Assembly (NCBI RefSeq): GCF_001761485.1
Contig: NC_090774.1
Coordinates: forward strand, 1,054,001 to 1,118,000
Origin: Yarrowia lipolytica
Lineage: Eukaryota; Ascomycota; Dipodascomycetes; Dipodascales
Length of the DNA: 64,000 nucleotides
Direction: 5' to 3'
Positions 16,085 through 54,353 of the stretch are shown here, one piece after another. Position numbers and translations under genes: made by a program. How positions within the stretch are numbered: position 1 is the first letter of the stretch; the number at the start of each line of letters is the position of its first letter. The notes under the pieces are model-generated. The model did no database searches. It saw only the letters and a program-made list of their open reading frames with translations, and was not told the DNA's origin.

Positions 16085-16180
16085 TGACAACCGAGAGATT
16101 CGAACTCTCGCCTCCGAAGAGACCAGGATATTGATTCAGTCACCTGAACCTGGCGCCTTAGACCACTCGGCCAGGTTGCC
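16085..16180 (-). tRNA. tRNA-Leu(CAG) with a 14-nt intron
   Basis: The acceptor strands GGCAACC and GGTTGTC pair with one G-U, and the discriminator base is A, as expected for leucine. The D-arm begins TGGCCGAG. The anticodon stem is CCAGG/CCTGG and the loop starts TTCAGG, so the anticodon is CAG (16144-16146). A 14-nt intron occupies 16129-16142, just after the base 3' of the anticodon. It contains CTGAA, the exact complement of the loop sequence TTCAG, the pairing usual in fungal pre-tRNAs. A short variable arm with a TTCG loop makes this a class II tRNA, and the T-arm GAGAG-TTCGAAT-CTCTC provides the B box. It reads CUG as leucine, so this yeast is outside the CUG-Ser and CUG-Ala clades. 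Confidence 0.95.
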
Positions 16181-24458: not shown

Positions 24459-27400
24459 TTACAACAGACTATCACTGTTGTTGTTGTTTGCACTGCTGGC
24501 GTTCCAGTTGATGTTGGAATTCATGTTACCAGAGCTTGTGTTTGTGGTTGCGTTGTTGTTTGTGTTCCAGTTCAAAGAGCCGCCCATGTTGTTGTTCATG
24601 TTGTTCATGTTGTTCATGGTGTTCATGCCCCCAGTGTTCATGCTACCCATGGTATTGTTGTTTCCCATTGGGTTGGAGTTCCAGTTGGAAGTAGTATTTG
24701 AGTTGGAGCTGTTCGTATTCCAGTTGATACTAGAACCAGTATTGGAATTGCTGTTACTGTTCCAGTTGATACCGCTGCCAGCGTTAGAAGTACCGCCAGA
24801 GCTTCCGCTGTTCCAGTTGATTCCCCCACCTGTAGATCCTGTGTTAATGTTGTAGTTGGCAGCAGGTTTACTGGCAGTCAGAGTCTGGGATTGAAGAGGC
24901 TGGGGCTGCAGAGGTTGCAGTGGTTGAGCCTGAAGAGGAGGAATAGAAGGCTTTACAGATGACTGAAAGTTGCCAAAGCTATTATTAGAGGTGCTTGCAC
25001 TGGCAAAGCTGCCAAAGTCGTCATTCTGCTTTTTGGGAGCCTGGAGAGCAGGAATCGAAGAGGGAATAGAAGGCTTGGGCGTGACGACAGGGACAGGGGT
25101 GACAAAGCTGGGTCCGTCGTCTAGCATGAAGTCGTTATTAGGCTTGCTAGGCTCCAGGGTCATACCTCCGATACCAGAAGACATGCCTCCAATACCCGCA
25201 CTGAGGTCTTCCCTCGATGCCATGGGCACTTCGACGTTATTCGTCAGCTTCTTCTTCTGCTCAGTTTCGACCTTGGTAGAGAACTGTTTGATCACAGTCA
25301 TGAACTTCTCAAACTGAGCCACGGTGTACTTGGGACCCACGGCCATGGACCACAGCACTGGAATGACTTCGTTGGCAATGACATCCACATCAAGCATCTT
25401 GACAAGAGTCTCGTAGAGAGACAACATGGACATCATGACTCGAGGATCTCGAGACTTGACTGCCTTAAGCATGCCGAGCAATTTATCTGTGACACTGTGT
25501 TTATCCAGACCAGACACAACGAGCTCCTTGAGAGCATTGATAGCAGCAATTTTGACACCCAGCGAAGTGGTTTTGGTGAAGACTTCACCAATCTTAGGGA
25601 AAATCTTGTTTTTGATGATGGGAAAGTCCAGTTTCTCTAGAATATCCTTCTGGCACTTGAACAGCGCATTCTCCTGCACTTCGGGGGCGCCAGCGTTGTC
25701 GAACATGATAAAGAAGAAAGGCAGAATCGTCTTCTCGATCTCCTTGGAGTTGAGGTTCTTCAAAAAGATGTCCAGATCTTCCAGGACCACCTTTTGCACA
25801 TCTGAGTTTTGTTGCAACTTCTCATTGTCGCTTAGAATCGGGAGAATAATCTTGCAAAAGTCCAGAGACGAGAGCTGAGCAGAGATGAGAAAGATGACAT
25901 GCAGAAGCGACGCCATGATGGCCTCGCTGACGTGGCTCAGCGACGAGATCAGAATCTTGAGAATCTTGTTCTTGAGAATCTCAAAGGGAAACTCGGGAAT
26001 GATTTTGATGAACTGGGGAATGAAGGCTTCAATCTCTTCATCGGTCTTGCCGGAGAATTCGTCAATGAACTTCAACGACTTAAGAAGGAAAGAGTTGAAG
26101 AAGTTGGCTGAGAGAATAGCCTGAATAGGGTACCTATCGGTGGGGTACCGGGTCAAAAGCTTGGGGAGAATCTCAATCAAAGAAGCTGGAATCTTGGTGG
26201 TGTTGTTGGGCTTTCTCAAAAAAGAACCTAGGCTCTTGACGTCCTCTTCGTAGTTGTTGTAGTTGTTATTCGAGTCAATAGGAGACTTGAAGTTGTACAA
26301 AGTGATGGCCAGACACGCCAGAGAAAAGACATCGGCCGAAAAATCGAGGTTCTTGTCGAGAACCAGCTCAGGTGCAGAGTAATCCAGATTGATCTGCACG
26401 AAACGAGGATACCTAGCGTCAAACTGCGGGATAAAGAAGTCACGTGATTCAGAACCCGCCACCTCGCATGCGTATCCACATCCTCCGAGCTTCCAGTCTC
26501 CGAGGGAGTCCACAAAGACCGTGTTGAGGTTGAGGTTCATATGCACCATCTTGGCGTCTTCATGCATAAACTTGAGACCCTCAGAGACTTGCAGAAGACC
26601 CTTCTGAATCACAAGAGGTGACAACTCCGGAGGTATATGGTCACGTGTAGACCTCGAGTCACGTGACGCATCAGCCTCGACCTTGGCTCGGATACAGGTC
26701 TCCACTCGTTCAGTGACAAAGCTGAGGGAGCTCTTTCCCTCGTAGAGAGGTTCCACGATCCGCAGGAAGTTTGGGTGTCGTAATCTGGCGAGATTGGTGG
26801 CTTCGTTTCGCAGTCTCGAATAAATTTCGTCACTTCCCTTGCTGTTTTTGAGTCCGTTTTTCGAGCAGAATGATTCAAACTTTTTCTTGTCAAAGGTGAA
26901 CACAGACACGGGGTCGTTTGTGGTCCTTCGAGTGGCGTTGTGGACTGCCCAGGCTCCCGCGTGAAATGCGGGCTCCGAGGAGATGTTGTAGTTGGCTGAG
27001 TGGCCGGATTTGACTGAGTTAGCACGGACTTGGGGCGGAACGTGTGATATAAGTTCTTCGAGGTAGTATTTTCCGTCATCGAGACTCCTCCAATTGCTGC
27101 AAAACATACCAAGTATACCAAGGGGAGCTTCGCAGTCAATCTGGTAGAGACTTGGAGGAACAGATGGAAGTCACATGCGATATTTTGTATTTTGTAGGTG
27201 ATGTTCATGTGGTCAACGATAGGTTGGGTTCCATTAGAAGTAGGTAGAGATATCAAGTAACATGATCTCACTTGAACCATCGCCAGATTCCCAATGAATG
27301 AACCTCACTCTCACTCTATAGTGATCTGGGCAAGACCGAACACCAACCCTTGACAGCTATATGCCAGGAAGAACACCTAACAAAGCACCAAGGACCGAGA

Positions 27401-27778
27401 TCAGAAAATCATTGGCAGAAATCAAGTAAACCAAGGACAATTGGACACAGCAGCCAAGACCTCCGAACACCCTCTTACCTGCCCATCTGACAACAATGCT
27501 TGTAGTCCAAACCTACTATAGAGAACTGTGAACAGATGTAAAACTGGACCGAACCAAGTTTCACCCAGTTGACGTTCAAAAGAAAGCTCTGCCCAAAAAT
27601 TCCATAACACTCTTAACTCCACCTCAACCCACACACACACCTCATACCAAGTACACCCTATCGCTGTTGGCGAACAGACCACCTTTCATTGCTCTCGCAA
27701 CCCTTCACAGTGGATTCCCCTAGCCGCAGACAACTCCAACCTCCATAATTCACACTCACATCCCAGAAATCCCAGCAT
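24459..27778 (-). CDS. SCY1-like pseudokinase (SCYL2/Ppk32 type), 19-nt first exon
   Basis: I place exon 1 at 27760-27778, encoding MLGFLG plus one base, and exon 2 at 24459-27013. The product is 857 residues. The 746-nt intron has a GTGAGT donor at 27759 and a CTAACTCAG acceptor at 27014. The joined N-terminus MLGFLGFKSGHSANYNI is the short hydrophobic lead followed by the first kinase strand, as in SCYL proteins. The kinase domain is catalytically dead on sequence: the HRD motif reads HMN (about residue 162) and DFG is replaced by GGC (about 188). HEAT-like helices follow (about residues 330-620). The Asn-rich tail carries six copies of a xNWN motif after about residue 734. SCYL2/CVAK104 proteins act as scaffolds in clathrin traffic between the trans-Golgi and endosomes. 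An unspliced start at 27107 is possible but gives an N-terminus unlike the family. Two TCACGTGA sites lie in the coding sequence. Confidence 0.87.
27014..27759 (-). other. Intron of the SCYL2-type gene
   Basis: The donor is GTGAGT at 27759 and the acceptor CTAACTCAG ends at 27014, for 746 nt. Phase 1 on both sides agrees only with the short exon starting at 27778. The other GTGAG-like sites between 27260 and 27310 give the wrong phase or have no upstream ATG. Confidence 0.75.
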
Positions 27779-28821
27779 TTTGCAACTTTTGCAGCTTGAG
27801 GTCGTGCTAAACGGTTTGTGCAACTTCCAGCTTCCGTGTCACAGAATCCATGTCCATGGTGGCAGGGCTGCAGCACTAAACCTTATTGCTTGAATATGAC
27901 AGATTATGAGAGATTGAAAATTGGACTGGTCTAACGAATGGGTCAATCACGTGATAACTACCGAGGAACACCTTTTCCTCTTCTGTCGCAAACACCTCCA
28001 TTTTCTACCCAAACCCTTATCAAACCAATCTCCCCGCGGATCGACCTAATCCGCTTACGTGGCGCCTCTTTGATGTTAGGGTTGCTTCCAGGACTCAAAT
28101 GATGGGTGGGGTTAGGGCAACATTTTTTTTCTCCTCGCCCTCGCTCCTACTCTCCTACAGTACCCTCCCAGTAAATGCCACTACGAGTAGTGTTTCTAGG
28201 GTTAGGGCTTCTACGCGCACTCCCAAAGTGGACCATCATCACTAAAGGCTGTGCATGCATGGTTGCTGCCAGGGTCGTTTCAGGTCTACCGTACTTCGGG
28301 GATCCGTGCGCACACGGCGGGGTCACGTGACGCCTACTGAGCGATTTTATCACGTGGCATCATTTGACCTCTGCATTTCTTTCGGCTGCGACATTCGAGT
28401 CTGGATGTACTTGTAGCAGCCACTTGCTCGGTTTTTCTACTTGTAGTGCAACGGCTATTTTTAGTATGTTTTAAATCACGAGTTGGACATGTTATGTTTT
28501 TTAGGGTGTGAAAGAGGTCTAATATGGGAGTTGAGGATATCATTTTGTTCTCTGACACGCTCCGATATCGATTCCGCCTTTACATCTCGTGTACCATCAG
28601 TTTTGGCCCTGTTAACACTTCCCCTTCCCTTGTGACTTCTCCCACGCTCCTTGTTCTCCTGTTGTCGTGTTTTAAACCTAGTTTTTCATTTCTGTTTCTC
28701 CCATCCCTTGATACTTTTTGACCCACACACTCTTGAACTCACACTACACACCCTCTTTCAAGTCAGGCCGGCCCGGACTTTTTACTAACTACTAATATCT
28801 GTGCTGGACGCGGATACCGAG
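27779..28821. other. Divergent promoter region between the SCYL2-type gene and OPY2
   Basis: The two genes are transcribed away from each other from this 1-kb stretch. It holds TCACGTGA palindromes around 27948 and 28324, a TCACGTGG around 28351, and three TTAGGG hexamers at 28076, 28112 and 28202, with a fourth at 28501. The frame at 28524-28721 has no recognisable content. Confidence 0.6.
28076..28207 (+). promoter_or_regulatory. Cluster of TTAGGG hexamers (possible Tay1/Tbf1-type sites)
   Basis: Three TTAGGG hexamers lie in the same orientation within 132 nt, at 28076, 28112 and 28202. The second reads GGGGTTAGGGC and the third TAGGGTTAGGGC. A fourth is at 28501. Myb-type telobox proteins bind such sequences: Tbf1 in budding yeasts uses them in promoters, and Tay1 of Y. 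lipolytica binds TTAGGG-like repeats. That they work as promoter sites here is inference. Confidence 0.4.
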
Positions 28822-30715
28822 AGTGAGTATATTGGAGGTTGGGGGGAAGGGTTAGGAGAGAAGGAGGGAGAGGTTCCGAGGACCTGTTGTGACATGGATG
28901 ATGACATTGATTTTGACGTTACGTTTTGTAGGGGTGGAATGGTGTGTGGGAGAAGTGGAGGAGACATGGGTGTGCCACTAGGCAGTTTATGCCAAATACG
29001 AGATATCATGTCGCTGTGTTCTTCGTTCTGTGGATGAGATGAGCTGTTATTGCATGATACCAGGAAGGTCCCCCGGTGGTGTAGCCTGGGGTCCCAGGAT
29101 GAAGAGGTGTAGTTTGACATTTCTATATGGACCCTTTCACGACCATGGTTCTGAGCATCTGGAACGTCTTTGAGAACTGTTGAGCATTTCAACTGCCTGT
29201 GATACCTGAGCACCTTATGAACACACTGCCAACCGCAAAACCTCGTCAGTGACTACCGACAGTGAGCTGAGGAACTTCTTGATCGTCACGAGAGTCGAGA
29301 TGCTACCTGAGAACAGTGGATGGATCTACTCCGACTGAGAACTACGAATTCGACTACGACAGTGACTATTGCTTGATTGTTTCAGGTGCTGCCTTTCATG
29401 CCCGTCCAAAAATACAAGAGCGAAAACGACTAAAAAATCCTCATCTACGATACCCCATTAATATCTACGAACACGTCCCCTCTGTACAACTGACCCCCAT
29501 GGTGTTGTCCGCTCAGACCCTGCGGCCCTCGTTACCAGTACTAACTCAGTGTCACAAGCGTGCCCACCCCAAGACTGCACGAAATGTGCTTCCAACGAAG
29601 TCTGCGTGCTCGGAGTTGCCTCCCAAGACAACCCCTGCCCCAGCATCACATGTTCTGCCGCGATGGCCAACACCAACACCGACTCGGGTAAGTCGTCATC
29701 TGGTACTTCTGCTGGAGCTATTGCCGGAGGAGTTGTTGGAGGTGTTGCCGCCGCCGCCATTTTCGGCTTCTTCGTTTGGTTCTTCTGCTTCTCGAAACGA
29801 GCACAGAGAGTCAGAGAAGAGAAAGAATGGATCCCCGTGGTCGGCCAGGACCACGTCACAGACAACCACACCGCCGGGCAGATGCCACCAAACCATCGAA
29901 ACTCGTCGTCGACGTTTGCCTCGCTGGCCTCTTCGGCCCTGTCTCGAGCATCTAACGTCATTCCCATCGCCTACGTTCCTGGTGTCACGTCACGTGGCCA
30001 AATGTCTCGTGACTCGTCCACTGGTGGAACTCTCGGTTCCAATCCGCCCATTCCCAACGTGCCCTGGGAGTACCAGTTTACGCCCGAGGAGCTGCTGCGT
30101 CAGTCGCGCCAATCAACCGTATACGGCATTCGAGATTCGGTCAACACAGAGGCTTACCGAGAGTCTCAGGCTTACGTTAGCAGTGCGATGATGACGGCCA
30201 TTCAGGCTAAGCCCATGCTTGTCAACGTGAAGGACGGCCATGTAACTAACAACGATGGGAGTGCACGTGACTCGGCTCTACGACAGTCATTCATGTCTGG
30301 AACCTCCGACGGGTCTGTCTATGAAATTGCCAGTGCCGAGCGAGTCAATGCCCGGTCCATTCGAATCGGAAAGGCCCAAAGAGTCGGTCTGCAAAGCACA
30401 TACATCAGTGAAGAGTCGGAGGAGGAAATCGGAGGAGGAGCCAGCAGGACACGAGACTCGACTCATTCTGCAGCTGTGCCCATTGGTCTTGATCGGCCCA
30501 CTCTTGGACGATCGTTGACCGGAAACAGTGGCTCTGGCGTCTCTGGCGTGAGTCGCAAGTCGGAGGTGCCTCCTCTGCCTGCTGCTTTGGAAGTCTCCTC
30601 TTCCGAGGCACCCCAGTTGGACGAGGATATTTTTGCTGGACTCGACATTCCTGTCCAGTTGATCACAACCGACGACGGTCAAGAGTCTCCTTTTGACGAT
30701 AAGTTTCGACTTTAA
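28822..30715 (+). CDS. OPY2: Opy2-like single-pass membrane anchor; start codon split by an intron
   Basis: The main exon is 29550-30715, directly after the acceptor CTAACTCAG, and begins TG-TCA-CAA. The only GTGAGT upstream is at 28823 and is preceded by A at 28822. Joining them gives A|TG and a 388-residue protein starting MSQACPPQDC. The N-terminus is a short cysteine-rich domain (CPPQDCTKCASNEVC, then CPSITC) like the Opy2 family ectodomain. A Gly/Ala-rich transmembrane helix follows at about residues 50-78, then FCFSKRAQRVREEKEW and a long Ser-rich cytoplasmic tail with acidic patches. Opy2 anchors Ste50 at the plasma membrane and so links Sho1 to Ste11 in the HOG osmostress and filamentation pathways. 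No ATG upstream of the donor fits in phase. The first ATG in the main exon would delete most of the Cys domain, so the split start is the most economical reading. Confidence 0.85.
28823..29549 (+). other. OPY2 intron that splits the start codon
   Basis: The 727-nt intron runs from GTGAGT to CTAACTCAG. The exon bases are A before and TG after. The arrangement is the same as in UBP3 about 6 kb away on the other strand. The frames inside it, such as 29316-30191, are in a different register from the OPY2 protein. Confidence 0.7.
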
Positions 30716-31295
30716 GCGTGGAGCGAACCATGTGACGAGTACTCGCACACTTCACGCACATCTAACGATAACATGAACACGTTGATACCCGGCTCGAATA
30801 CAGGTATTTCGAGTCGCTGTTTTTTTTTTTTTTGCTGACTGCATTTGCCAGAAAGATGACCGGACACTAAGTAACTACTTTATGAGTTTTTAGATTGCAT
30901 CGCACGGGGTGCTATAATGAAGTGATTGTAGGCTGTGTAGAACGGAGCTTGAGGGTCTCTACTGGTAGCCCGGGAAGAGTGGTGCTGTAATCAGAATCAG
31001 CTAGTGAAGTGTACTGTAGTATCCATATTGGAGTGAATAATTTAGAGTTCAATGGGGGATGTTTTCACAAGTCTATAAAACCCTCGAATAAGGAGCGAAA
31101 CTAGAAGAAATTTCTACAGGATCAGCCTACCACAGTAGCGAGTTGTCAGTAGCACTAACTCGTCCCTATCTCCTTTATCACATCCCTCAGATGGACTCTT
31201 CTCACTACCCTCATCTCTCTAGCAACCTTAAATCTCGTGTCTCTCTCCCACATCCAAGAACTGCAGTCTACGAACTCTCTCGATCCTTCTTCAGC
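30716..31295. other. Spacer between OPY2 and CCE1
   Basis: This contains a run of 14 T at about 30820-30833 in the OPY2 3' flank. A TATAAA at 31074-31079 lies about 220 nt before the CCE1 ATG and is a candidate CCE1 promoter element. Nothing else seen. Confidence 0.55.
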
Positions 31296-32977
31296 ATGTC
31301 CAAAACGAAATTCCAGCAATTGACCAACAAGGCTCTGGCTGCGTTGGCCCTGGAATGTGGCTTGAGTAAGTACCTCTCGAGAGTGGAGGGTTGATCGAAT
31401 GAATGAGACGGTCCGCTGGAACCAAGATACCACCTTTTCGATCCATACTATGATACCCTGTTGATGCCGTGCTGGAGGAGGCATTGCGTGAAATACACCA
31501 ACAAAAGGCTTCAATGGTTGATTCTGCTCAAATTTCACACCCAAACCTGTGTATTCAGTGTCTCTATTCGTGCCATGACCATACCTGAATGACCTACCAC
31601 AAGACAGGGCGAACATAGCTACAGCCGACTGAACATGACGTTTGTTGTTCATAAATGTGTCACCTACTCTTTTGATCAAAAAAATAATTTACTTTACACA
31701 CTAACCCAGAACGCTCAGGAACAAAACCTGATCTCCAGGCAACTCTCAGGTCAGTCGTAGACTCTCCTCCAGTCACTCCTCCTAAGTCCTTGCGGATAAC
31801 ATCCATCGATATGGGTGTCAGAAACCTGTCTGTATGCCAAGTGACGTTAGGAAGAACTAGAATCGAGAAGGAGAATGCAGTTACACCTACATCTACTGTT
31901 ACACAAGACGCAAAAGTGGAGAAGAAAACAAAAGCTACCAAAACGAAGACAAAAGCCAAGGATTCTACAAAGGACACTACACCAGAACCCGACAGTGGTG
32001 CTATTTCTCCGACAATCTTATCTGCTGATGTTTCTGTCGCCACTGTTTCCACCTGGAATACACGTGACATTTCTGAGTTCTCCACATCTCCAGGAGCCAC
32101 GCAAGAAGACATACCATGGGACCTTAGAAACGACTCGTTGCTGGAAGTAGCGTACAATTTCGTGTCACGTGAGCTTCTGGGCGACAATGTACGTAAGAAG
32201 CCCCATGTGGTTCTCCTTGAGCGTCAGAGACATCGTTCCCAGGGCAGTCCTTCTGTTTTGGAGTGGGTGTTCCGTGTCAACATGTTTGAGAGCATTCTAG
32301 CAGGCACAGTCTACACATACAAACAGAGGTCACATGATAAAAAGGCTGGGACACCCGAGAACATCGATTCTGATTCGCACAATACAGATCTGTTTCGTGT
32401 GGATCCACGAATGGTGGCTGATTACTTCATTCGGGGCAAACGAGCCAAGGGCAAGAAGTTCGACATCAAGGCAGAAAAAATTGGAGTTGTTGGCCAATGG
32501 TTGGAGGCCGAGTCACATGATCTGCCTGAGTTTGAGAATATGGTGAAAATGCAGGCCGTCGCTGAGAAACCCAAACCAAAGAAGAGCACTCGGAAGAAGA
32601 AGGATGAGGAAGCGGAGGTGGTGGAAGAGATAAAACCACTAGCGGAGGAGGAGGTACCACGAGATGAAACTCCCCCGCAACCTATGGAACGTAAACTCAT
32701 TCCACGCGATCTCAAGAGCATTCCGGGGTTCTCTCCTCTTACGCCTCAACTACATTCTCTGGCTTCTCATCTTGAGGTTATGAGTTCGATTCTGGCAAAG
32801 AAGCGATACAACAGTGTCAAGTCGAAGAAGGCGGATGATGTGGCTGACTCGTTGCTCCAGGCTCTAGCATGGTACAACTGGCAATATAACCGAGAGTACT
32901 TGAGAGAGCTGCTTGAGAATGAGGATGATGAGAGATGGCTTGAAGTGAATGCCTGGGTTAAGGAAAATGTTGAGTGA
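31296..32977 (+). CDS. CCE1: Mitochondrial Holliday-junction resolvase (Cce1/Ydc2)
   Basis: The exons are 31296-31365 and 31710-32977, giving 445 residues. The 344-nt intron runs from GTAAGT to CTAACCCAG. Splicing assembles a SAP-type DNA-binding motif, LALECGLKRSGTKPDLQATL, which neither exon contains alone. That strongly supports the gene model. The RNase H-like resolvase fold follows. Its acidic catalytic residues are visible in SIDMGVRNLSVC, LLERQRHRS and KKADDVADSLLQAL. Between these lie two Lys-rich low-complexity inserts (about residues 75-105 and 275-320), which make it longer than the roughly 350-residue budding yeast enzyme. Cce1 cleaves four-way junctions in mitochondrial DNA and helps mtDNA segregate. 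An in-frame ATG at 31191 would add a Ser/Arg-containing extension that could serve as presequence. Confidence 0.93.
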
Positions 32978-41145: not shown

Positions 41146-44100
41146 ATGTCGCTGTGCAACGACCCAGAGGGGTGGCAGCTGCTGACCAACTACTACGATG
41201 TGTCTCCATGCGTTTCGCAGAACGTCTTCTTCATTCTCCCGGGCTCAGTGGCCGCGCTATTCGGTGTACCAGCTGTTGTCCATCTCTACTTTCAGCCAGG
41301 TAAACGTCCTGCCGTTTGGAGCTACACGTTGAAACAGGTGAGTATCTCAGACGAAGGGTACAGCAAAGGTTCCAGCACGAATACTACAATTCCTACTTGT
41401 ATTGTACAGTCAATGTTCCATCGTGAATCTCCACACAACACCGTCTCATACTAACATAGATTCTTACACTCATTCAACTGTCAATTGCGGTTTCTATCCC
41501 CTTTACGACCACGTTCCAACACGATCTGCGCCATTGGTCCCCCCTGGTGCTCGCTTTTGGCTCCATTATCATCTTCTTCATCCAAAAGCTCGAGTTTGAG
41601 AAACGGAAACCCTCCAGCACCGTCGCCCTTTCTTTCTGGGGCCTCCAGACTCTCGACTCGGCCATTGTTGTCTATGGGCTTGGTATCAGAGGCTTTGACG
41701 AAGCAACCTACGTCGTCTCACTTATCTCAATCGCCTTCCTGGGCCTCTTCAATCTAGTCCTTGAGACCACATACAGCCCATCCTCAGAGCCTGCCTTCTA
41801 CGATGACTCTAACTTATTCGTCAAACTGACTTACTCCTACGTGAGTCCCATTCTCAGCAAGGGAATCAATTCCATGCTCAAGATCGGAAACGTCCCGAAA
41901 CCTCCTCTGGAATTGCGAAGTCAGTACATCTTCAGGGAGTTCAGTGAGGTGTGGGGACCGAAGATCGACCTATACACCAAGGCAGCTGCAAAGGACCCCG
42001 AAACTGCAAAGTTCCCTTCCCTAATTGCCACCTTCTCCTACATCCATGGTTATGATTATCTCAAGATCTCCCTTCTGCAGGTCTTCTCAATAGTGGTACC
42101 TTTTGTCCAGCCTTTGCTACTGAAGCAACTCATTCTGTTTGTCGCGAAATATAACAACGGACTTGCCCCGTTGTCCCAGGGTATTTCCATTGTGTTTGCT
42201 GCCGGTTCAATGATGCTGTTAAGAACCATTATTGAAAGCAAAGAAGAACTCATGACCAACAACCTCATGCTGCGAATTGAAACGGCTCTCAGTCAGACTG
42301 TCCACGAGAAGGCTCTCAGACTTTCCACCGCAGCCGTTGCCGACACCTCTATTGGAGAGATTGTCAATATTCTATCCAACAGTGTCAAACAGTTGACCAG
42401 CGTTGTTTCTTACCTGCATATGATCTGGTCTATCCCCCTTCAAATTACCATTTGTTGGCTGACAATGTACAGCATGATCGGCAACGCCATGTGGGTGGGG
42501 ATGGCAGCATTGCTCTTGGTTGTTCCCTTCACTGCTTTCATCTCCAAGCTGAAGATGGGTCTGTTTCTGGCCATGCAGGGCATCTGCGAAAGCAGATATA
42601 CTGTCACCAACAACCTCCTGTCCAACATCAAGTCTGTCAAGCTGTATGGATGGGAACCAACCTTTTATGGCAAAGTAGAGAAGATAAGAAACGAAGAAGA
42701 GCTTGCAATCGTGCGAAAAATGTCCTACCTTAGCGCCATTGAAAGCATTCTGATGAGAACTTGCAACAACCTCGCTGCTACCGCTTCCTTCGCCTTCATC
42801 GTGTTGTTCCAGCACATCCCTCTTTCAGCTGCCAGTGCCATTCCTGCTCTAAATCTGTTTACGCGTCTTCTTATGCCATTCATGTTTGTTCCCTACATTG
42901 TCCAGTTTGGCATCCAGGCCTGGGTTGCCTTGACTAAGATTAATAACTTCCTTGGTCTCACTGAAGTTGAAAAGTTCAACGGACAGGAGCACATCCCAGA
43001 CTCCTCCAAGTCTGTCCCTGTCAACGTCCATGGGTCCTTTTTTTGGGACAAACAGCTGGAAAAGGCTGCTTTGGAGAACATTTCGTACACCGCCGACAAA
43101 GGAGCCACTGTGTGCATCATCGGAAAAGTCGGGGCTGGAAAGACCGCCACTCTGATGGCCACCCTGAATGAGCTGTTTGTCCAGAATGGATCAACATCAG
43201 TAACTGGGTCGGTAGCTTACTCATCACAAGTGCCTTGGATTCTCAACTCCACAGTAAAAGACAACATTCTGTTTGGATCCCGTGAAGACCCAATCTTTTA
43301 CAATCTGGTGATTGAAGCTTGTGCCCTGACCCATGATCTACAGCTTCTTGCCGATGGAGATCAAACAGAGGTCGGAGAGAAAGGTATCTCGTTGTCTGGT
43401 GGACAGAAGGCCCGACTTTCAATTGCCCGTGCTGTCTATTCACGTGCTGATGTGCAACTGTACGATGATCCCCTGTCGGCTGTTGACGAGCACGTCCAAG
43501 CTCATTTGATCAAAAACGTTTTTGGACCTCGTGGTCTATTGAGTAGCAAGACAGTTGTTGTTGCTACCAACACGGTTAACCTGCTTCGACACTCCTCTAC
43601 CATTCATCTTATTGAAGACAAGACGTTTGTTGAGTCGGGAGAGTTCTCCGAACTCATGACGAGAGATGGAAAGATCAAAAAGCTGGTGGATGAGTTCCAG
43701 ACTCAAGCCGGTGAGTCTACCCCGGATGCCAGTAAGGTCATTGATGCCATTGAGGTTGACGACAAGCGTATCGAGTCCGACGCTAAACACCCGTTCTCTC
43801 TGCGTAGAGCCTCTTCCATTTCGCACTTTTCAGTGATCACTGTTGCTGACGATGATGCTAGACGTACCAGAGTTGAAGATGAGGTAAAGGAAACAGAGGC
43901 TCTAAACTTCGTTGAGCTATACAAAAAGTACTTTGTTGCAGTAGGATACATCAACATGGGGGTGTACCTTGTTCTCTCTCTCGTTGGATCAGCCCTCACT
44001 ATCGCCAGTACTTACTGGGTGGCCGAGTGGGGCAGCGACAAGATCGACCTGAGTGACATTCAGCTAGTTCTTGGATATTTCTTTATTAGATTTGCCTCTG

Positions 44101-51458: not shown

Positions 51459-54353
51459 GGCTGTTTTCGTTGCTTGTCTTTTTGTGTCTGTCGTTCCGCG
51501 TCTTTGTGTCGTGGCTTGGTGGTGATGGATGGAGTCAACAATAAATTGTGCAGTGCTGTTGCGTTGGTCTCTTCCTGCCTCCAATCGAACTCGAGCGCAG
51601 CGAGAGTTCGAAGAAAAAAACCTGCCCGCTGTTTCTGGAGGTGCACCGCAACGAGAAGAGGAGTGGGGTGGGAAAATGGGAAAAATATGGGGAAAAGGGG
51701 AGGAGGTGAAAAGGGCCAGGTTGATGATTACCAAAAAAAAACTTGGTATTTATAAAAACCCCCCTTCATTTGTCAAATACCACTCCGCCCCATCTGCACC
51801 CTCCCTTCTTCCTCAGGGTTCCCAATAGTCTATCTATCGTATGCACCTGTGCTCCACCTTCCGGGGGTGTAGCAGAAAAAGCCGGATACAGCTCACACAA
51901 TAAGGGGCAAAATCGAGCGGGCATGGAACAAGATGGGGATATTTGTGATGACTAATCCGACTTTTTAGAAAATCCCACAGCCATCCATCTGCACCCTCTC
52001 TTCGCGCCTTCCTACACTTTCCCAATCGCATGCTTCATGCGCTCGACTTTGACGTAATACTATGTAATGAAGTAGCTCTGGGTGAAGGTGGAAGTCTCCG
52101 AGAAATGGTGGGATAAACGTATGGAAATGCTGGCTGTAAAGATCTTTCTGTGGTGTTAATTGATACCGTTTTACTTTTTCTTGCTACAATTCAACTTTGC
52201 GGTGGCTCTTCCGCCCTACAAGTACCTGGTCATCACCGCAATGTCGAGCTCAGGACGGAAGACGTCTAACTCTCTCGATACTTGATATATGGAGACGGGG
52301 GTGCCGTCAATGTGCTCGGCTCGTCGCAAGGAAGCTGTTGGTGCCACTTTCGGCGCAAGTAGGCCCACATTAGCCAACCCCTTGACAGCCGACCGGGTTA
52401 GTTTTTAGCTCACGTTATTTCCACGCGTTGGGTGCAACCCTCAAACGTTTTCGCTGCATTATTCGAAAACCATCGTGATGATTGATTTACGGATACCGGC
52501 CTGGATTAATAATTGACGGCGACGAGCTATGATGATTATTAGGTAGTTAGGAAATGAAAAGCGGAAAAAGACGTGCGAGGGAAGCGGTATAAATAGTAGG
52601 CGGTTGCCGGCGAGCAAACCCATTAACAACCGGGTCTAAACCCTGCCTCTGTCATGTTCAACAAGATGGTCCTGTATATATACTGGCTTGCCCCTCATTC
52701 AGCCCAGTCCACACGTTCCGTTGCTGCCAAAGTGAAACTTTATGACGAGATGTTGGTGCCACTTGGAGGTGGTTTAGTTGATTAGGAGCAATTTTCGAAA
52801 CCCAAATGAGACTGCAAAATCACGTATTTTCCAACTATCGGCATTTCGACTCATTTTGATGAATGAAAACACACTCCATCGTACTCCATCGCGAGCACTT
52901 CTCACAACCACTCGCCACGATGTACAGTAACAACGATGTTGGTGCAAACAAGGTTGGCGCGGACTTGGGTTGGGTTGGGACGACTACAGTTCTGGGTTGG
53001 GGTTGAAATACGACATAATAACTGCTGAAGAGGGCACAGCCCAACAGGTGAAACAGCCAATGGAAGTACGCGATGATTATCCGAACGTGGGAAATAACTT
53101 CAAAGACGATCCGAGGTTGGTAAAATGTCGTTGGAGGGTTTTTCAAAGGCCTTTGGAAGGTTTTTCCAAGGGTCTTATGCCATTCGAAGGTCGGCTGAGA
53201 GACAACTACGATAGAGTGACCTTGAAGCTATATTGTAGTTGAACTCAGCCGTAGTGTTTGTTATAATATAACAACCTTTAGTTGAGTATACAAGAACCCC
53301 ACGAGAGTACTCCATTGTCGAGGGTACAATCATATTAAACACCCAAAAGCCGTTATAAAACACTCGAGAAATCACATAAACACTCTAGAACTCTCATTTC
53401 CAACCAAGAATTGTACAAAACGCCTAATATCACCATGGAATACAACCGTCCAAATCTCAGCCTTACACGTTGCACTTACATCTGATAACTTTAGTATAGA
53501 CGCCCAAAGTCGGTCAATACGAACAACAAACAAGACAAACGTTGGGCCCGATGCATAAAAGGGGTCACGTGATCCACCTGAGCCCGCCACCCCCCGTCCT
53601 CTCCAGTATTTACCTCATGCGCCCGGTATTGCTCGCTGACTAAGCGTTGATAAAGTTCACATCTATCTGCACCCTCCTCCTCAGTTCACCAGTTATTGTA
53701 ACAAGAGACGTTGCAATTGGAGCGACACAAACGGAACGGGGAAAAGGTATCACGTGACCGTATTACTGACATCATATCCACACGGCGACAACCCTAACTC
53801 CTGCGGCTTTCGACTCGCAAATTACACGAATCTACAGTACCCAGTGTCACCATTGCGAGGGTACATGACCAGGTGACAACAAAAAGAGGTCTTTCGATAA
53901 AACAGCAACTTTTGGGGGCACATTCCGAAAGATTGGATCACGTGACCTACTAAAACTACATTGTGAGTGACGGCAAGATAATGGAGAGACTCTCCACCCT
54001 ACAATATGTCTAGACGGATTACCACTGTCTAGAAAGAGATGACTGGTTATGGCTAATATCATTCAATTTGGGAGCTTGTGGAGATGATGTTACTTTTTGA
54101 AGTTTTTCAATAACTTCATTTTTGAGCGATGTGTGATATTTCTGGGTTTTGTTCATGTTTGAAACCTCTACATTTGGCCAAGCAGTTTGTTTACGTTATC
54201 GCGTCAATTTTTCTTCGCATATGAATGTTCCTGAAGCCATTCTTCTATTGCGACTAACCCAGCTCTGATCTATATCAGTACAAGTACATACGTGATATAT
54301 CACGAGACACATCTTCTGCAGAACGCACGTTCCTCCCATTAATTTCTTCTACA
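51459..54353. other. Divergent 2.9-kb region between INO80 and GEF1
   Basis: It should hold both promoters. A TATAAATAG-like element lies near 52590. TCACGTGA palindromes occur around 53566, 53751 and 53939. CTAACCCAG at 54254-54262 and GTGAGT at 53963 could bound a 300-nt intron in the GEF1 leader. A direct and inverted GGAAGGTTTTTCC-like repeat lies near 53130-53172. The frame at 52970-53242 starts at TTG and is not convincing. Confidence 0.55.
53963..54262 (+). other. Candidate intron in the GEF1 5' leader
   Basis: The GTGAGT donor and fused CTAACCCAG acceptor match the introns proved in coding genes nearby, and the acceptor lies 91 nt before the GEF1 ATG. No ATG occurs between the acceptor and that ATG, and no upstream exon with a start codon fits, so this would be a 5'-UTR intron. 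Confidence 0.45.

Follow-up and report, generated by a model that had tools for sequence, protein, structure and literature searches.

A predicted intron splitting the ATG of an Opy2-like gene in Yarrowia lipolytica

Predicted splice sites and the joined reading frame

In a 64-kb stretch of Yarrowia lipolytica DNA, analysed at its full length and called the window here, an Opy2-like reading frame on the plus strand raises the question of where its protein begins. An earlier note on this DNA had described a Cys-rich ectodomain open up to a splice acceptor followed by TG, and this description held: traced back through genomic DNA, the frame meets a stop at 29459, and no in-frame ATG follows that stop until 29663, past the Cys-rich part. 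We consider it very probable, from the arrangement of the sequence, that an ordinary spliceosomal intron in phase 1 separates the A of this gene's start codon from its TG. The A|GTGAGT and acceptor|TG junctions that the note had proposed were found at 28822|28823 and 29549|29550.

On the plus strand the proposed donor reads GAGA|GTGAGTAT; the A before the cut is base 28822, and the intron would begin at 28823. Given GAGA|GTGAGT and no in-phase ATG after the preceding stop, this A (28822 to 28822, plus strand) would be the entire coding part of exon 1. In the phase required by A|TG the stop lies at 28786 and ATG is absent from there to the donor, as the note had also said. The 5' splice site GTGAGT (28823 to 28828, plus strand) is the species consensus according to the accessible text of PMC13309789 and PMC2911113, and is the donor expected of the Y. 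lipolytica genes with A|TG start codons. At the other end, a candidate branch point fused to the acceptor, ACTAACTCAG, occupies 29540 to 29549 (plus strand) in the layout that these accounts give as the species norm. Within it CTAAC-T-CAG spans 29541 to 29549, placing CTAAC about one base from CAG as expected of that same class of genes, and TG follows at 29550-29551.

Joining A|GTGAGT...CTAACTCAG|TG yields ATG and leaves, as far as the sequence can tell, a first coding exon of a single base. The joined flanks read ...GATACCGAG ATG TCA CAA GCG TGC, leading straight into the Cys-rich segment, and the predicted protein reads MSQACPPQDCTKC.... The proposed phase-1 intron (28823 to 29549, plus strand) would be 727 nt long with a GC content of 0.488 and 18 internal ATGs, and exon 2 (29550 to 30715, plus strand) would supply the TG of the start codon and the Opy2-like frame, together 388 aa counting Met. 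Motifs, phases, frames and ATG content were observed directly for this model.

The 296 nt ending at the donor (28527 to 28822, plus strand), a likely 5' leader, are free of ATG, the last preceding one being at 28524. When the local sequence was shuffled 2000 times with its dinucleotides preserved, 46 shuffles had an ATG-free run of at least 296 nt before the end. Frames opened by 17 of the 18 ATGs in the 727-nt intron stop within it and none enters the Opy2-like frame. The last one, at 29499 on the plus strand, opens an out-of-phase frame of 230 codons that runs to 30189 and overlaps the Opy2-like frame, probably by chance.

Some observations go against the model. At 727 nt the intron is long compared with published medians of 196 and 204 nt, and the base preceding a donor is, in the accessible text of PMC2911113, G more often than any other base (48.5%), and not A. 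By codon usage, preference for the Opy2-like frame was seen chiefly from about 29610-29640 and showed no edge at 29550; a different frame scored above it at 29762-29822, and at 29492-29552, ahead of the acceptor, the Opy2-like frame was already slightly best. The codon-usage scan was of little use for placing the exon edge.

Other possible starts and the Opy2 assignment

The split could use a different donor. Between 27780 and 29490 there are eight donor-like hexamers, defined as those with at most one mismatch from GTGAGT or among the four commonest published donors, and in five of the eight, 28823 among them, the preceding base is A and splicing would give ATG. The note's statement that 28823 is the sole upstream GTGAGT stands for the plus strand from 26000 to 29549 but fails if taken to mean the sole possible donor. 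The same A|TG start might be made, exclusively or in an alternative splice form, through GTATGT at 28464, GTGAGC at 29262 or GTGACT (29249 or 29362). In the accessible published data GTATGT ranks third among donors, with 2.2% of canonical introns. All four, however, differ from GTGAGT, which in the accessible text of PMC13309789 accounts for 73.0% of canonical introns and which is described as giving the best splicing, and we regard their use as very unlikely.

A coding exon with its own ATG might also lie upstream, at 29217-29244, with CTC|GTCAGT (29245) joined to 29550 and about nine residues added to the protein. The ATG at 29217 is in phase, no stop intervenes up to the donor at 29245 and the resulting intron would be 305 nt. 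GTCAGT at 29245 is nevertheless a weak donor, falling outside the four commonest in the published data accessible, and the exon requires a transcription start just upstream because 13 ATGs of the proposed intron come before 29217. Of the possible starts considered, we give this one the least credence and find it hardly probable at all.

Alternatively, transcription may begin inside the region, with the protein made from the ATG at 29663, which encodes residue 39 of the longer protein, lacking the Cys-rich part and leaving the splice-like motifs unused. This ATG is the first in-frame one past the upstream stop in genomic DNA, and a codon signal that becomes clear only from about 29610-29640 fits a start there. 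Against this, the six-Cys segment directly after the acceptor can be aligned, if weakly, over almost all of the Opy2 profile, and a perfect branch point and acceptor bordering that segment would have to be coincidence. The motif CTAACNCAG occurs seven times in the window compared with 1.77 expected, and 0 of 100 shuffles reached seven. We judge the 29663 start very unlikely and retain the model in which the intron from 28823 to 29549 splits the start codon.

In the frame read from this split start, Cys residues fall at positions 5, 10, 13, 19, 30 and 35, followed by a single hydrophobic segment at about 58-80 and a long tail. This is consistent with the Opy2 architecture described in the accessible text of PMC6347418, a Cys-rich extracellular part, one transmembrane segment and a cytoplasmic tail, with the topology predicted from the sequence. 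Pfam at E 0.001 gave no family for the frame. The match to Pfam Opy2 (PF09463) missed the 22.1-bit cutoff both with the 86-residue N-terminal piece (10.3 bits, E 0.93) and with the whole 388-aa protein (7.1 bits, E 9.1), and the sub-cutoff alignment covers profile positions 4-35 of 35. Other sub-cutoff matches scored higher, namely TM_ErbB1 and C19orf12, both in the region of the membrane segment, and, in the whole-protein search, Glyco_hydro_11 in the tail. The motif IPIAYVPGVTSR in the tail recalls, in our own reading, fungal Opy2 proteins. The name Opy2-like is based on the architecture and the sub-cutoff Pfam match, and an Opy2 function is presumed from these. Among publications mentioning both 'Yarrowia' and 'Opy2', none appeared from its title or the start of its abstract to concern this gene.

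A second proposed split start codon and the intron signals of the window

The note had pointed to two genes on opposite strands sharing A|GTGAGT and acceptor|TG, and the second was located on the minus strand. There a proposed A|TG-splitting intron of 929 nt (22466-21538), recognised from the sequence, precedes a ubiquitin hydrolase gene. Its flanks read ATAATA|...|TGAACT and the gene that follows encodes a UCH domain (Pfam PF00443). Pairs of the form A|GTGAGT...CTAACNCAG|TG separated by 40-1500 nt number two in the window compared with a mean of 0.027 per dinucleotide shuffle; none of 300 shuffles held two such pairs and the maximum was one. GTGAGT alone was not enriched (32 observed, 45 expected).

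Seven distinct pairs of GTGAGT with CTAACNCAG were found in the window, the two A|TG pairs and five others, three of which sit, by our reading, at gene 5' ends, while one precedes a Ras frame. The candidate pair of the Ras gene spans 5557-4735 (minus strand). The pair at 51425-50841 (minus strand) ends before the presumed ATG of one gene and the pair at 53963-54262 before that of another, which we read from their frames as INO80-like and CLC-like and name on that assumption. The pair 30548-31709 looks false as an intron, because its donor lies within the Opy2-like frame and the resolvase gene that shares this acceptor has its donor, GTAAGT, at 31366. That gene (31296-31709, plus strand) is Ydc2-like and would encode a mitochondrial resolvase; by inspection it has a 70-nt first coding exon, GTAAGT in place of GTGAGT as its donor, the acceptor at 31709 and an open joined frame. 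In a gene read by eye as an ABC transporter, GTGAGT stands at 41338 and CTAACATAG ends at 41459.

The gene divergent from the Opy2-like frame is a kinase (27014-27778, minus strand; Pfam Pkinase), which we take to be Scy1-like. It has an apparent 19-nt first coding exon, ATGCTGGGATTTCTGGGAT, followed by a 746-nt intron, and its junction 27759-27014 (minus strand) gives MLGFLGFKSGHS.... A small upstream ORF lies just ahead of the first coding exon. GTGAGT with CTAACNYAG appears to be the genome's ordinary intron marking, at start codons and elsewhere.

A known RNA gene within the 727-nt intron was sought with Rfam at gathering thresholds over the whole window, and the sole match was a tRNA gene elsewhere, at 16085-16180 (minus strand, 96 nt by Rfam), perhaps with an intron of its own. 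A common origin of both A|TG introns, by copying of one intron to two start codons, was not supported. The best blastn match between them covers 29 bases (27.4 bits), and when one of the introns was shuffled 300 times, three shuffles matched or beat it, a marginal similarity that suggests no family yet amounts to more than zero evidence.

Clustering of split start codons was evaluated over seven introns running from GTGAGT to CTAACNYAG, comprising six of the seven distinct pairs (30548-31709 left out) and the ABC gene pair 41338-41459. A|TG splits make up two of the seven; the published proportion, 47 among 1119 introns (1083 from coding sequence and 36 from 5' UTRs), gives a probability of 0.032 for at least two. 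Other denominators gave 0.025 (six introns at 47/1083) and 0.004 and 0.009 (13 or 20 genes at 47/6449). These probabilities are mild and vary with the denominator chosen, and because they were computed after the window had been selected for its A|TG feature as well, no conclusion was drawn from them.

A published class of start codons and its meaning

Split start codons of this kind are already described in Y. lipolytica. In its accessible text, PMC2911113 (Mekouar et al. 2010) counts 47 genes in which the first coding exon consists solely of the A of the start codon, and gives GTGAGT as the 5' splice site and an average of one base from branch point to acceptor. The accessible text of PMC13309789 (Qi et al. 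2026), based on RNA-seq, counts 42 'start codon' introns, placed after A, T or G; for the introns of the species in general it gives ACTAAC as the commonest branch point and a one-base gap to the acceptor in 72.5%. The Opy2-like gene resembles the class of Mekouar et al. in the split after A, the GTGAGT, the CTAAC plus one base plus CAG and the 5' position, and no difference from it was found in that text. With the introns of Qi et al. it shares a 5' splice site inside the start codon, but those are described there as shorter than 5' UTR introns (median 325 nt), whereas the Opy2-like intron would be 727 nt. In other eukaryotes, phase-0 start-codon introns likewise fall at the first codon but after the whole ATG, and introns that disrupt the start codon are described as relatively rare (PMC1626468). 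The accessible part of a language-model paper (PMC12513839) contains nothing on split start codons.

The Opy2-like A|TG intron would therefore be an instance of a class already published for Y. lipolytica, and its interpretation is mostly in print. This also bears on what the note had proposed more widely. Its suggestion of recurrent start-codon introns in the lineage is sound as far as a tendency to keep them goes, and that tendency is published (47 genes, 42 introns, in the accessible texts). The two introns do share the same signals as claimed, but these signals belong to the species' general splice consensus: since GTGAGT and CTAAC one base from CAG are reported species-wide, the shared signals are nothing special to start codons. 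The class as a whole was not missed by gene finding, as Mekouar et al. could count 47 such genes.

If the intron from 28823 to 29549 splits the start codon, expression would proceed as follows. Transcription would start from a putative promoter in the region separating the Opy2-like gene from the divergent kinase gene. The donor at 28823, GTGAGT, would be recognised by U1, and the intron would close at 29549 with CTAAC-T-CAG, in which branch point and acceptor are combined. The AUG ahead of the complete Opy2-like frame would be present in the spliced mRNA only; the unspliced mRNA would have 18 other AUGs, 17 stopping inside the intron and one running out of frame. As splicing would create the start codon, the full Opy2-like protein would come from spliced mRNA only. 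Nonsense-mediated decay of the retained form is probable, judging from the general finding in the accessible text of PMC2911113.

The split start might in addition be a regulated gate, in which less splicing of the 727-nt intron, or starts inside it, would silence or truncate the Opy2-like osmosensing anchor. In Metarhizium robertsii the protein level of Mr-OPY2, also an OPY2 gene, is set by its 5' part, although the control there uses alternative transcription starts and upstream ORFs, in a UTR region without an intron according to the accessible text of PMC5691130. By analogy, this 5'-leader regulation makes a gate conceivable, though we hold it to be improbable on present evidence; if true, it would parallel the Metarhizium OPY2 control at the level of splicing.

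The Opy2-like locus does not settle the origin of first-codon introns. If the model is true it would correct the Opy2-like gene model, from which the Cys-rich ectodomain is lost without the split start, and intron retention would abolish the protein because its start codon is made by splicing. The locus would then illustrate a documented peculiarity of Yarrowia, that in some genes it is splicing that makes the start codon.
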